A stretch of DNA of 64,000 bases from Enterocytospora artemiae (taxonomy: Eukaryota > Microsporidia), in NCBI GenBank assembly GCA_038659295.1, contig JASNGC010000001.1, positions 248,001 to 312,000 of the forward strand, given 5' to 3'. Each line of letters opens with the position of its first letter. Within the stretch, counting starts at the first letter, position 1. The notes under the pieces were generated by a model that worked only from the letters and a program-made list of their open reading frames with translations, ran no database searches and had not been told where the DNA came from. Positions 29,505-35,026 of the stretch are shown here, in pieces. The translations under genes were made by a program, and so were the position numbers.

Positions 29505-32228
29505 ATGAGAGTAGATCTAAATAGTTCCAATAGTATGCTTATGTCCAATATTCCACAATTGGAAACAGAATGCTATAAAAGCAACATTTCAGAACGAATA
29601 TTCAAGCCAAAAAAGTATGCATTTGGTTATATTTTTACCCAAGCCTATAAACATCCACTATTATCGCCTCCCATCCAATATTCTTTCCATCATACACCCT
29701 TGTTTTTTGACTGTCAAATATTTGATAATTATTATGTTTACCATAAGGATCAACTCATCCTTCCCAGCAAGAAAAACTCCATAACTTCCTTATTTTGTCA
29801 GTTTTCAGGTGTTGTTGAGTTGCGAAAAGATGTAAGGATTGTTCCAAAGTTCGTCCAAAATTCTACAGATAGAAAAAGTCACAGATTAACTTTAAATCAC
29901 AGGCATAACAATACACATGGCCACTTTCTATCATTGAATTGTACCTCCACAAGCTATTGTAAATATAACCGACCTACTAAATTAGCCACTAGTACCTTAA
30001 TTGATTATTGGAAAAAGATTTGGGTTTTTCCAAATTTTTATCTGCTATCAACCTCTTTAGAGAGACTTACGATTAAAAACATCCGAATTAGACGAGTAGA
30101 TCTTCGTATATTAACATCTCTAAAGTATGTTCAAATAACAAACTGTAGGCTAAAAAGGTTTCTCGTTGCAGGGTCACTAGAATATTGCAATTTAAACAAT
30201 AATAAACTGAATGGGCACTATCAGACAACTAAAAGTGGAATTAAGGCACTGGATAATAATGAAGGTAAGGTTTTTGGAATCAAATCAAAAGTGCTTATTT
30301 TATCACACAACAGAATTGAATCATTCCAGAGTGATTTTTTTTATAAGTTTTTGAATTTATCTTATAATCCACTTAGAAAGTTCCATGGAGACGGTGAAAA
30401 TATAAATGTAGGGAAAACTAGAATTAAAAATAGGCTCTCCTTGAAATGCAAAATATTGAGAGCAAATTATGTCAAAACCTTAAGGTTAGGAGTGTGTGAG
30501 AATCTTACGTATCTTTCCGTGAATAGCTGCAATTTAAAAAAATTGAACATTAATGTCATTGGATCGAGATGCAATGATGGGAATGATACTTCTCATGCAG
30601 TGGAGAGTGGGAAAAGTGGATTTATTGATAAGCAACACGAAAGTATCCCAAAATGTCTCAATAAGCTCAAATATTTATTTGCCAAAAATAACAATCTGTG
30701 GAAAATTGGTAAGTTGAAAGATGTCAAGGTAGTAGACTTGTCGGGGAATTTTTTGAACAGAATTTATACAGAGAATGTGGAAGTTTTGGACGTGTCTAAA
30801 AATCATCTGTTTAAAATATCAATGAAGGGAAAGAAGTGTTTAAAAAAAATAAATGTCTCATTCAATTTATTAACTGAGGAAGAACTACTGAATGATGTCT
30901 TGATAGATCAGGATAATAGAACAGGTGAGTTGAAAAATAAGCTTGGATATCATCATTATTTTGATCTGAATGATACTAGCTCACTAAGTATGGGAAATAA
31001 CTTATTGTATAATGGAGCTGAGTGTTACATTGATCAAGTATCGTTAAAAATTATTTATGAAGGTATTTCAATGGTACTATATGTGACTGCAAAAACCCGC
31101 ATAAAGGTGGAATTGTTAGAGATTGTTGAAAATGTTTTACATAAAATACTTGCAAATGATAAATACCCAGATTGTAACAGTATCAATGATTGCTTTAATT
31201 TCTTTAGAGAATTTACCAGAATGGTATATGTGAGTGTATTATCAACAAGAAAATCAGTGTCATTTTGTATGATTATTGAGAAATATGTATTCGTACGAAC
31301 TTTTAACCAGCCCATTTTTATTATTACATTTACCAAGGTTATTAAAATTAGCACAGAGATAAAAATCGTGATGTTTAATAACATTCAAGAATGGCATATA
31401 ATTCCTGTGTTTTCAAAGTGTAAAAAAGGATCCCAAAAACGAGAATATAAGCTATCTAATGATTTTTCAAACTTGTGCGAAATTTTCACATTCTTAAATC
31501 ACAAATCACCACTTTCGCTGAAATTTACAATCTCAAATAGTTCAAAACACCTGCAGGAAACCGGCATTTTATCTGACTCTAAAGAAAACTTTGCGATTTT
31601 ATCCAAAAATATTAAGTCCATTCACTCTAAGGACTTTCACAAGAAGTTTAATCATATATTGACAGAAAATATGGATGATAGAAAAAACCACCGAGTAGTT
31701 GGTGATAACACCACCAGTGATTACAGCATGGTGGATGGCTTTGAGACTATTCAAAACCCGACATTTGCATTTTTGAAAATTAATCAGCACAATTTAAACA
31801 TTGATGATGTGATATTTTCAGAATGCATGAACATTATCAGAATTATTGATGTGTATGGCAAGATTTATAAGGGATACATAGTTGAAAAAAAGTCTACAAA
31901 CATTATTTTGGGATTTTCCACACCAATTTCTGCAGCTCGATGGGGAATGAAGGTTTTCAGTGTTTTCAAGGCCATGGGAATAGATGTATCTGTTGCAATA
32001 ACTCAAGAAACTGTGTTTAGAATAATAAATAACGGAAAAATTAAGTATACTGGGCCGGTTTTCTATAAACTTCAGAGAATGGCATTGTCTGGAATTGGAG
32101 TGTTTTGTTGTGAGTGTGTTCCGATTTACCATTCCAATATTGTTCTAGTTGATGAAGGAGAGAGAATACTAAAAGGCTATCAGCAAAATCACAGAATTTT
32201 CTCACTTAGATATTTTTCGGAAGTTTAA
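29505..32228 (+). CDS. LRR protein with degenerate fungal-type adenylate cyclase domain
   Basis: This 907-residue protein has the layout of fungal adenylate cyclase Cyr1 in shortened form. Irregular leucine-rich repeats fill about residues 185-460 (for example ILSHNRIES, LNLSYNPLRKF, VVDLSGNFLNRIY, VLDVSKNHLFKI). Residues 490-740 may be a decayed PP2C-like region. Residues 750-875 match the C-terminal cyclase fold (GFSTPISAARWGMKVFSVFKA, GKIKYTGPVFYKLQRMALSGIG). The catalytic positions appear lost. Where active cyclases have F-T-D-I, this has FLKIN. Where they have E-G-D, it has KSTNI. The late N-x3-R pair has no clear equivalent in KLQRMAL. It is therefore probably a non-catalytic protein. 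A CCC run lies eight bases before the ATG. Confidence 0.72.
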   Translation: MRVDLNSSNSMLMSNIPQLETECYKSNISERIFKPKKYAFGYIFTQAYKHPLLSPPIQYSFHHTPLFFDCQIFDNYYVYHKDQLILPSKKNSITSLFCQFSGVVELRKDVRIVPKFVQNSTDRKSHRLTLNHRHNNTHGHFLSLNCTSTSYCKYNRPTKLATSTLIDYWKKIWVFPNFYLLSTSLERLTIKNIRIRRVDLRILTSLKYVQITNCRLKRFLVAGSLEYCNLNNNKLNGHYQTTKSGIKALDNNEGKVFGIKSKVLILSHNRIESFQSDFFYKFLNLSYNPLRKFHGDGENINVGKTRIKNRLSLKCKILRANYVKTLRLGVCENLTYLSVNSCNLKKLNINVIGSRCNDGNDTSHAVESGKSGFIDKQHESIPKCLNKLKYLFAKNNNLWKIGKLKDVKVVDLSGNFLNRIYTENVEVLDVSKNHLFKISMKGKKCLKKINVSFNLLTEEELLNDVLIDQDNRTGELKNKLGYHHYFDLNDTSSLSMGNNLLYNGAECYIDQVSLKIIYEGISMVLYVTAKTRIKVELLEIVENVLHKILANDKYPDCNSINDCFNFFREFTRMVYVSVLSTRKSVSFCMIIEKYVFVRTFNQPIFIITFTKVIKISTEIKIVMFNNIQEWHIIPVFSKCKKGSQKREYKLSNDFSNLCEIFTFLNHKSPLSLKFTISNSSKHLQETGILSDSKENFAILSKNIKSIHSKDFHKKFNHILTENMDDRKNHRVVGDNTTSDYSMVDGFETIQNPTFAFLKINQHNLNIDDVIFSECMNIIRIIDVYGKIYKGYIVEKKSTNIILGFSTPISAARWGMKVFSVFKAMGIDVSVAITQETVFRIINNGKIKYTGPVFYKLQRMALSGIGVFCCECVPIYHSNIVLVDEGERILKGYQQNHRIFSLRYFSEV

Positions 32229-32467: not shown

Positions 32468-35026
32468 TTATACTTGTAATTTCGATAGTTTCTCTATAAA
32501 GCTGAATATCGAAGTTAGTGTACTTCCTATTGTCCGAGACTTGTCCTCACAAAGAAATTCCTGCAACCTTTCCGAAATGTCTCGATTTTGATCAAATTTA
32601 TCCACCAGTTCCTGTAATTTATTGGATGAGTAGCCAAAGAACGCTATAAACGATGATTGTTCAACCTCACTTAACCCGTTGAATTCATGGATACTATCTT
32701 TATATTTTTCGATTAATTTGTTTATTCTCACTCGGACATTAGTTAAATCTATTGTTTGATATTTCTCTAAACATTTAAATTCTTCAAATAAATTCTTACA
32801 ACTGATCCCATTCTCATTTAGGCTTTCTACTATCAGTGAAGACATATGATATCCTCCATGAGAGTAGCAAAGAAATATTCCTAAACTCTCAGGCTTAAAT
32901 CCTTCAGAAAATCTATTCTGGGTCGAATACTTATAATTTATGGAGTTTCCTATTTCTAACAATATTTTTATCGTATATCTTAGGTTTTTAGATTCAAAAA
33001 TCTTCTTCAGGACTTCATTAAAATCAAACATAAATGTCAATTCGGTGGAAATTTGTTCAAAAAACTCTCTTTCGAAAAGTAAAATCTGCAATTTCGGCTG
33101 AATATTTTGAATTGTCGAAATGAAAATCATTTTTTGTTCAATTTCTCCAAGATCTGAGAAGTCAGCACCGCCAAAGCACTTTTTTTCTGCTTCTGTTGGA
33201 AGTATACAAGATAAGTTCTTTAAATCTTGAGTGGAAAGGGTCCTCGGCCGTAAATTCATCACTTCTGAAATATGTTTACAACTGACGTATCTTAACTCTA
33301 AATGTTTTATGGCTAGCGACACTAAAAACAGCCTTTTTGAATCACAAATTGTGGGAATTTCCTTTTCCTGCCTAATTTCATCTTTTATATCACAACTTGG
33401 CAATTTACAAAACCTTTCCTCAATTTTTGGATAGTTGATGTTTACTTGTAAATCTTTAACTTTTTCAAATATTGTGCCCTCAGTTCCGAAAACTGCCAAC
33501 CAATGCAGTGGCTTGACAGATTCAACATTGGGTTTATTTGCCAATGGTTTGAGTTGTTTTCTTCTTAAGAAGGACATGTTTCTAACAGATGAATATGGCT
33601 TATTTTTTCGCAACTTTTCTGTGACAAAATCAACCTCCACAATATCAAAGGTTTGGTTTTGATGCAGCAGATTATTTGACAAATCATATGCATCTGTTGG
33701 TTTGACATCAAAGGTGGGTTTCTCTGCAGTAGTCGATTTAATCCCTGGAATTTGGACAGGATGTGCGGTATAGATTAGGTTCTTATACCCTCTTGACTCC
33801 AAGGATTTAATTAGATTTTCACATTCTTCGAATCCAAAGTTCATTTGTGCACAAAACTTAGCTATGGTTCTATTGTATGACAATTCTATTAATCTGTCAA
33901 AAAGCTGGGAATTGAAAGAGTTCGACATTTTAGACGAAATTGCTATCATATCGGCAATTAAATCCCGCTTCAGGGTGTATGGATTTGAAATGGACAAATC
34001 AGAGTTTGATACAAATATCAGATCCAGGCTGAAATCCTTACTGAAGTATTTGTAAATATCAGAAGAGGGGAAAAGAGTATCAATATCATATCTAGAAAAC
34101 CGATACAGTCCCTGTTCATAGAAAAGTGAGTTCAGTTGAATGTCAAATATATGGTATTTAGTTTTTTCCTTTTCGAAAAACAAAGACAGTTTGAAATCAT
34201 CAGTGAGAGTTTTATTTATCCCACTAAAAATGACAAAATCAGAGTCCTTATAATAACTTCCAGATTCAATAGTTGAACTGGAGTTCAAGGTATTGGGGTC
34301 ACCTTGTGATATTTCCAGGATAGGTTTGTAGATATCAGAGTCTATAATTGTTGGGATTGTTGTTATTATCAACTGATTTAAAATGAGTTGTGGAAATGAT
34401 TTTACATCTCCCAAAGAAATTAATTTATCAAAATACTTGGCATATAACTTAACACAGCTCATCTTTTTAAACGAAATATTCAGCAACTTTTGCTTCAATA
34501 CATGCATCAATGCACCTTCAGCAGAGTTGTGATATTTTGAATATGACAGAATTGCACATAAGAAGAATAATATCTCAGATTCGTTCCCAACACTAATTTC
34601 CAGGACTATTTTGTTTTTTTCATTGAGCATTAGCCAACAGTTGCTTGTTTGAACAATTTCGAGGCATTGCTTTATACTGAATTTAGCACTGGTGTAAATC
34701 TGAGATCTTTTGAACTGGTTTGAAATATAGTTTTTGGTAAATGAATAGACTAAACATTGATCTTCATATGTATTTGAAATAAATTGCACAACCTTTTCTA
34801 TGTTATTAGCCCTTTCGTTGTCATTTGAACATTCGTAGATGATCTTTATCCTATCATTGATGTCTTCTATAAGAAGTCCCTGATGATGTTTATTGGTTTC
34901 ACCATGATAAATGTGGTTAGATTCAATCACTAATGGTTGTAAGGAGTACTCAGTGGCCTTTGAAAGTTCCTGAATTTTCTGAAATATTTTAGATGAAAGA
35001 TTTAAACCATTACTACCTTTAGACAT
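32468..35026 (-). CDS. Formin (FH2 actin nucleator) lacking an FH1 region
   Basis: Formins nucleate and elongate unbranched actin filaments. The FH2 domain covers about residues 500-850. It opens KPLHWLAVFGTEGTIFEKV, continues through LSCILPTEAEKKCF and LGEIEQKMIFISTIQNI, and has the closing block KILLEIGNSINYKY. The N-terminal 400 residues are helical and could be the armadillo-type FH3/GBD regulatory part. The linker between them lacks the proline stretches of FH1 that bind profilin-actin. The start ATG at 35026 lacks a nearby CCC. The length of 852 residues is short for a fungal formin (about 1400-1950). Confidence 0.85.
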   Translation of the reverse strand: MSKGSNGLNLSSKIFQKIQELSKATEYSLQPLVIESNHIYHGETNKHHQGLLIEDINDRIKIIYECSNDNERANNIEKVVQFISNTYEDQCLVYSFTKNYISNQFKRSQIYTSAKFSIKQCLEIVQTSNCWLMLNEKNKIVLEISVGNESEILFFLCAILSYSKYHNSAEGALMHVLKQKLLNISFKKMSCVKLYAKYFDKLISLGDVKSFPQLILNQLIITTIPTIIDSDIYKPILEISQGDPNTLNSSSTIESGSYYKDSDFVIFSGINKTLTDDFKLSLFFEKEKTKYHIFDIQLNSLFYEQGLYRFSRYDIDTLFPSSDIYKYFSKDFSLDLIFVSNSDLSISNPYTLKRDLIADMIAISSKMSNSFNSQLFDRLIELSYNRTIAKFCAQMNFGFEECENLIKSLESRGYKNLIYTAHPVQIPGIKSTTAEKPTFDVKPTDAYDLSNNLLHQNQTFDIVEVDFVTEKLRKNKPYSSVRNMSFLRRKQLKPLANKPNVESVKPLHWLAVFGTEGTIFEKVKDLQVNINYPKIEERFCKLPSCDIKDEIRQEKEIPTICDSKRLFLVSLAIKHLELRYVSCKHISEVMNLRPRTLSTQDLKNLSCILPTEAEKKCFGGADFSDLGEIEQKMIFISTIQNIQPKLQILLFEREFFEQISTELTFMFDFNEVLKKIFESKNLRYTIKILLEIGNSINYKYSTQNRFSEGFKPESLGIFLCYSHGGYHMSSLIVESLNENGISCKNLFEEFKCLEKYQTIDLTNVRVRINKLIEKYKDSIHEFNGLSEVEQSSFIAFFGYSSNKLQELVDKFDQNRDISERLQEFLCEDKSRTIGSTLTSIFSFIEKLSKLQV

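Follow-up and report, generated by a model that had tools for sequence, protein, structure and literature searches.

The window, i.e. the whole 64,000-nucleotide stretch of Enterocytospora artemiae DNA that was analysed, contains on its forward strand an open reading frame (29505..32228) that runs from ATG to stop, has no internal stop codons and encodes a protein of 907 amino acids. At the base composition of the window, such an open frame would arise by chance with a probability of about 10^-29.7. When the protein was used as a query against its own genome (3.0 Mb, five contigs), one locus was recovered, namely itself. The gene is flanked upstream by an importin-beta-like gene and downstream by a formin gene on the opposite strand. 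In the formin neighbour (32468-35026, minus strand), a PTEN-type C2 domain (E 1.2e-13) is combined with a formin FH2 domain (E 9.3e-19), a layout that resembles plant class II formins. PTEN and microsporidia are both mentioned in a paper on formin diversity (PMC5628938). The main features of the gene are as follows:

29505..32228, + strand: pseudo-cyclase gene, 907 amino acids, single copy, intact
29727..30044, + strand: N-terminal part (roughly residues 75-180), which aligns with the conserved N-terminal domain (about 110 residues) of the relatives (alignment A2)
30060..30884, + strand: leucine-rich repeats (LRRs), about residues 186-460, by Pfam LRR_4 and the family alignment
31017..31514, + strand: probable PP2C-phosphatase-like domain, residues 505-670, by predicted fold
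31746..32213, + strand: class III cyclase fold, residues 748-903, by profile-profile alignment with controls and by predicted structure

Relatives in other microsporidia

A homologue search with the whole protein identified two relatives (best E 1.5e-44; 7989 candidates scored), and this low number is probably the result of LRR words crowding the candidates. A second search, for which residues 395-785 of the relative P0003 served as the query, recovered ten proteins, P0003 included. Five of them are named orthologues, from Encephalitozoon cuniculi (P0005), E. romaleae (P0006) and E. intestinalis (P0007) and, in a second genus, from Ordospora colligata (P0010) and O. pajunii (P0011), all annotated as hypothetical or uncharacterized; the remaining members are P0002, P0003, P0004, P0008 and P0009. 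A search with alignment A4 returned P0002 and three LRR proteins at 8-10% coverage, and the latter three were discarded as LRR matches.

The family set, consisting of the window protein and its ten relatives, can be aligned across the LRRs, the middle region and the C-terminal domain. All eleven sequences are full-length (731-907 amino acids) and share 66 invariant positions, i.e. we are dealing with a conserved protein and not with a one-off. Within the set, the window protein has diverged most, its cyclase domain being 24-32% identical to those of the others. One could read this divergence, together with the loss of catalytic positions described below, as the mark of a decaying relic without a function, but the full length of every member and the number of invariant positions make such a reading hardly credible.

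Domain layout and the comparison with fungal Cyr1

The original prediction proposed that LRRs, a possible PP2C-like region and a C-terminal cyclase fold follow each other as in the fungal adenylate cyclase Cyr1. The LRRs and the cyclase fold are present and stand in the right order, while the PP2C part was recovered by fold only. Pfam LRR_4 matches the window protein weakly (E 0.0053, under the curated cut-off), but it is above the cut-off in the relatives P0002 (E 6.3e-9) and P0003 (E 4.2e-17), and the repeats precede the C-terminal domains, as in Cyr1. Besides the weak LRR match, Pfam gave a Upf2 match in the window protein, which we take as chance, as we do an NB glycoprotein match and LRR-effector names in NCBIfam. 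A single-sequence search of the PDB with the window protein alone gave no match. The region in front of the repeats is possibly ubiquitin-like or Ras-association-like, judged by eye alone; for the corresponding domain of the relatives, a profile search of the PDB and a comparison of the members with Pfam gave no convincing match.

The predicted fold of residues 505-670 is PP2C-like in 48 of the best 50 structural matches listed, and TAB1 entries are found among the matches. A profile search of the PDB and the comparison of the members with Pfam produced no believable sequence match for this region. The structural model thus makes a PP2C fold between the LRRs and the cyclase domain probable, the evidence being weaker than for the cyclase fold. 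TAB1 is a PP2C-fold protein without phosphatase activity and offers a precedent for the use of this fold as a binding module; unlike the window protein, it has neither a cyclase fold nor LRRs. A sub-threshold similarity to RasGEF lies inside the PP2C-like region (window 31452-31634, genome C1:279452-279634). Its E value is 0.0018 as a fragment and 0.021 in the genome search. It is seen in just one of ten family fragments, the window's own, and is probably due to chance.

The C-terminal cyclase fold is backed both by controlled profile-profile alignment and by structure prediction. The family profile aligned with that of 93 bacterial cyclases with a score of 77.4 (probability 97.6), as compared to a maximum of 21.7 in 100 column shuffles, 16.3 for the reversed profile and 9-14 for four other regions of the family. 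Without the window protein the score was 69.6, and the window protein alone scored 31.2 (probability 51.8; maximum of 100 shuffles 18.6). With the predicted structure, the best 50 of 953 Foldseek matches and the best 50 of 999 chains in VIA-align were all cyclases. In the best structural matches the sequence identity to solved cyclases is a low 17-19%. A search for the fold among viral structures gave five matches below E 0.001, guanylate-cyclase-domain proteins first, and added nothing. Among the matches listed, no other fold was found for residues 748-903. The mycobacterial class III cyclases Ma1120 and Rv1900c were used as structural references; they are active enzymes and, unlike the window family, are built without LRR and PP2C domains. 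When the PDB was searched by sequence with the family profile, the top match was human soluble adenylyl cyclase, in its C-terminal (C2) half.

We can now compare the general features of the family to those of fungal Cyr1/Cdc35 (MAC1 in Magnaporthe). Firstly, the order of LRRs, probable PP2C domain and C-terminal class III cyclase fold is the same. Secondly, the gene is present in a single copy in the genome of the window, as in the fungi surveyed. On the other hand, the metal aspartates and the base-recognition residues are replaced in the window family, the proteins are shorter than fungal Cyr1, which is about 2000 amino acids long, no Ras-association or G-alpha-binding domain was recognised, and a new invariant motif, GxGVFCCxCVxxxH, has appeared.

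According to a survey of 101 eukaryotes (PMC2939053), every fungal LRR-cyclase examined there has LRR, PP2C and cyclase domains, a Ras-association domain occurs in many fungi though not in all, and LRRs joined to a cyclase were seen in fungi alone. An LRR protein could in principle have acquired a cyclase fold independently of Cyr1, and the low identity to solved cyclases and a PP2C part that is no more than probable would agree with this. However, the LRRs, the probable PP2C part and the cyclase fold stand in Cyr1 order, the joining of LRRs to a cyclase is restricted to fungi in that same account, and microsporidia are related to fungi, so we hold an independent fusion to be very unlikely. 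Membership in the secreted microsporidian LRR protein families A and B (PMC3976299) was considered and rejected. In that work, microsporidian LRR proteins are said to resemble adenylate cyclases among others, and this resemblance could be due to the LRRs alone.

Replaced catalytic residues and a new conserved motif

The catalytic positions were assigned from the merged family alignment and its residue table (n=11):

31776..31778, + strand: K758, at the first metal Asp (Arg in 7, Lys in 4 of 11)
31884..31886, + strand: E794, at the base-recognition Lys (Glu in 10, His in 1 of 11)
31896..31898, + strand: T798, at the second metal Asp (Asp in 5, Arg in 3, Glu, Lys and Thr in 1 each of 11)
32043..32045, + strand: K847, at the base-recognition Asp of DYFG (Arg in 9, Lys in 1, Gly in 1 of 11)
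32064..32066, + strand: Y854, at the transition-state Asn (Asn in 6, Ile in 2, Ser, Cys and Tyr in 1 each of 11)
32076..32078, + strand: R858, the transition-state Arg, kept (Arg in 11 of 11)
32091..32132, + strand: GxGVFCCxCVxxxH, residues 863-876 (no variation among the 11 sequences at 9 of its 14 positions)

The original prediction placed the two metal aspartates at FLKIN and KSTNI, and our alignments agree, since Asp-1 falls on K758 and Asp-2 on T798; none of the alignments made restores them. Neither of the two outcomes that the original prediction named as refuting, another fold or restored metal aspartates, was observed. Asp-1 is absent from every member of the family and is always replaced by Lys or Arg, and the E. 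cuniculi protein (P0005) has Arg at Asp-1 and Lys at Asp-2. Of the 93 bacterial references, 90 have Asp-1, 90 the Lys and 90 Asp-2; the remaining three catalytic positions were predetermined by the criteria used to select the references. The claim that the late Asn/Arg pair is not conserved was half correct: the Asn is lost in the window protein, but the Arg is retained throughout. Note that in an alignment of the window protein by itself a 3-residue gap lies directly before R858, so the assignment of this Arg depends on the family alignment.

Class III cyclases require both metal aspartates, and the active site of a homodimer takes its aspartates from one chain. A homodimer should therefore have no complete metal site in any of the eleven proteins. 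The columns of Asp-2 and of the Asn are little conserved, as 130 and 129 of the 153 domain columns, respectively, are more conserved. R858, C868, C869, C871 and H876, on the other hand, are invariant, and GxGVFCCxCVxxxH is the densest invariant 14-residue stretch in the entire protein. Taken together, this indicates that constraint has gone from most of the active site and now acts elsewhere. The pattern Cys-Cys-x-Cys-x4-His (32106-32132), invariant in all eleven sequences, lies inside the pseudo-cyclase fold; judging from sequence, it may bind a metal or serve for packing.

The replacements in the pocket are not random: Arg or Lys occupies the Asp-1 position in 11 of 11 and the DYFG Asp position in 10 of 11 sequences, and 10 of 11 have Glu in place of the base-recognition Lys, a residue that guanylyl cyclases also have there. 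On these grounds the altered pocket might be regarded as a ligand sensor that would bind a nucleotide or a phosphate ligand without metal and thereby change the shape of the scaffold. Yet the Asp-2 and Asn positions vary freely, and the densest invariant stretch is not built of known pocket residues, so we consider a sensor of this kind, proposed from sequence patterns, to be quite unlikely.

The C2 half-domains of mammalian cyclases also lack the metal aspartates, and the family resembles them (e.g. human ADCY10) in combining a cyclase fold without these residues with a transition-state Arg, the Asn being present in 6 of 11 sequences here. The window protein could thus be one half of an active heterodimer, in which it would contribute the Arg, together with the Asn in some species, and its partner the metal aspartates. 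The top PDB match and the invariant Arg speak for this possibility. But C2 works beside an active C1, and no C1-like partner was found here. PF00211 has no match in the own genome, while 5 of 14 control genomes were positive; the profile also misses the pseudo-cyclase gene, so an equally diverged second copy or partner could escape it. Searches of the own genome with P0001 and P0003 recovered the pseudo-cyclase gene alone. As the Asn is moreover a Tyr in the window protein, a half-enzyme appears highly improbable. CYTH had no match in the own genome either (11 of 14 controls positive), and within the reach of these searches no further cyclase came to light. PDEase_II gave no match as well (2 of 14 controls matched, none over the cut-off). 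PDEase_I and CAP_C had no match in the genome or in any control and are hence uninformative.

A probable pseudo-cyclase alongside a cyclic-nucleotide-controlled kinase

The protein was originally suggested to be a pseudo-cyclase, perhaps an adaptor for a Ras-like or PKA-linked signal. The pseudo-cyclase reading is well supported, in as much as the cyclase fold is present, metal-binding residues are lost and the protein is intact in Encephalitozoon and Ordospora. We did not find the Ras-like link. At least 12 loci for Ras-superfamily GTPases (L003-L014) were detected in the genome, which by characteristic motifs are presumably Rab-, Rho-, Ran- or Arf/Arl/Sar-like, and by the same motifs none of them is Ras-like. 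A G-alpha search of the genome gave three sub-threshold matches, all at Arf/Arl/Sar-like loci, and a RasGEF search gave as its sole match the sub-threshold one inside the window protein; in neither case did the control genomes give a match over the cut-off. Ras input seems unlikely in this genome, and a Rho-like GTPase is a possible substitute.

The PKA link is possible, since PKA subunits are present. A catalytic subunit is encoded by L018, for which the PDB entry matching best (E 3.6e-65) is 1fot, a cAMP-dependent protein kinase type 1. One cyclic-nucleotide-binding protein was found in the genome, of 305 residues (L002:1105-2022, + strand, contig C2). It carries the inhibitor-type site RRKRRASV as well as a full phosphate-binding cassette, FGEIALLHSVPRTATV; in its second half the cassette is lost. 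In the PDB it matches cGMP-dependent kinases of parasites first (E 1e-37, summed over several stretches), followed by PKA regulatory subunits (E 5.7e-24 and weaker), and we read it as a PKA regulatory subunit because it has no kinase domain and carries the inhibitor-type site. The intact cassette ends in PRTAT, with a Thr typical of cGMP sites. In the literature, E. cuniculi is credited with one catalytic and two regulatory PKA subunits (PMC2078597), and PKA is reported in three of the four kinomes studied (PMC4280135).

The explanation that we favour as the likely one is that the protein is a catalytically dead descendant of Cyr1, kept as a protein-interaction scaffold at least in Encephalitozoon, Ordospora and the lineage of the window. 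Such a protein would no longer make cAMP, given the loss of residues, and its cyclase fold may still pair with a partner or with itself. The surfaces of the LRRs, the PP2C-like region and the pseudo-cyclase could then hold together a signalling complex, the most natural client of which would be PKA or another kinase. There is a precedent for a non-catalytic scaffold role, as the PP2C domain of Magnaporthe MAC1 is described as binding a MAP kinase and a Ser/Thr kinase (PMC2939053).

The parasite PKA would be controlled by a cyclic nucleotide that the window protein does not make. With an intact cyclic-nucleotide cassette beside a dead cyclase, PKA probably continues to be governed by a nucleotide made elsewhere, for which the host is the obvious candidate and an unrecognised parasite cyclase the alternative. 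One may go further and speculate that the parasite no longer synthesises cyclic nucleotides itself, that host cAMP or cGMP reaching it tunes PKA through the one intact cassette, and that the dead Cyr1 positions PKA or its regulators. We regard this extended scenario as rather unlikely, though if it is true, the PRTAT Thr would permit the reading of host cGMP.

The same survey lists E. cuniculi as being without an LRR adenylate cyclase, while it found the enzyme in every fungus covered except two (PMC2939053). Another study (PMC2666651) built a tree rooted with E. cuniculi as the outgroup from eight genes collected by BLASTP, adenylate cyclase being one of them. No microsporidian pseudo-cyclase was found among the matches listed from the open-licence literature. 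The window family fills part of the E. cuniculi gap, as a homologue is present there without the metal site. This suggests that Cyr1 was not simply lost in microsporidia, but that a degenerate relative survives in which the catalytic site is gone and a new site is under constraint. As a candidate, the family would represent a class III cyclase turned pseudo-enzyme that has been retained in several genera of microsporidia, and it looks like a non-catalytic variant of the LRR adenylate cyclase in an organism that still has a cyclic-nucleotide-controlled kinase. The source of the cyclic nucleotide of microsporidian PKA thereby becomes a directly testable question.
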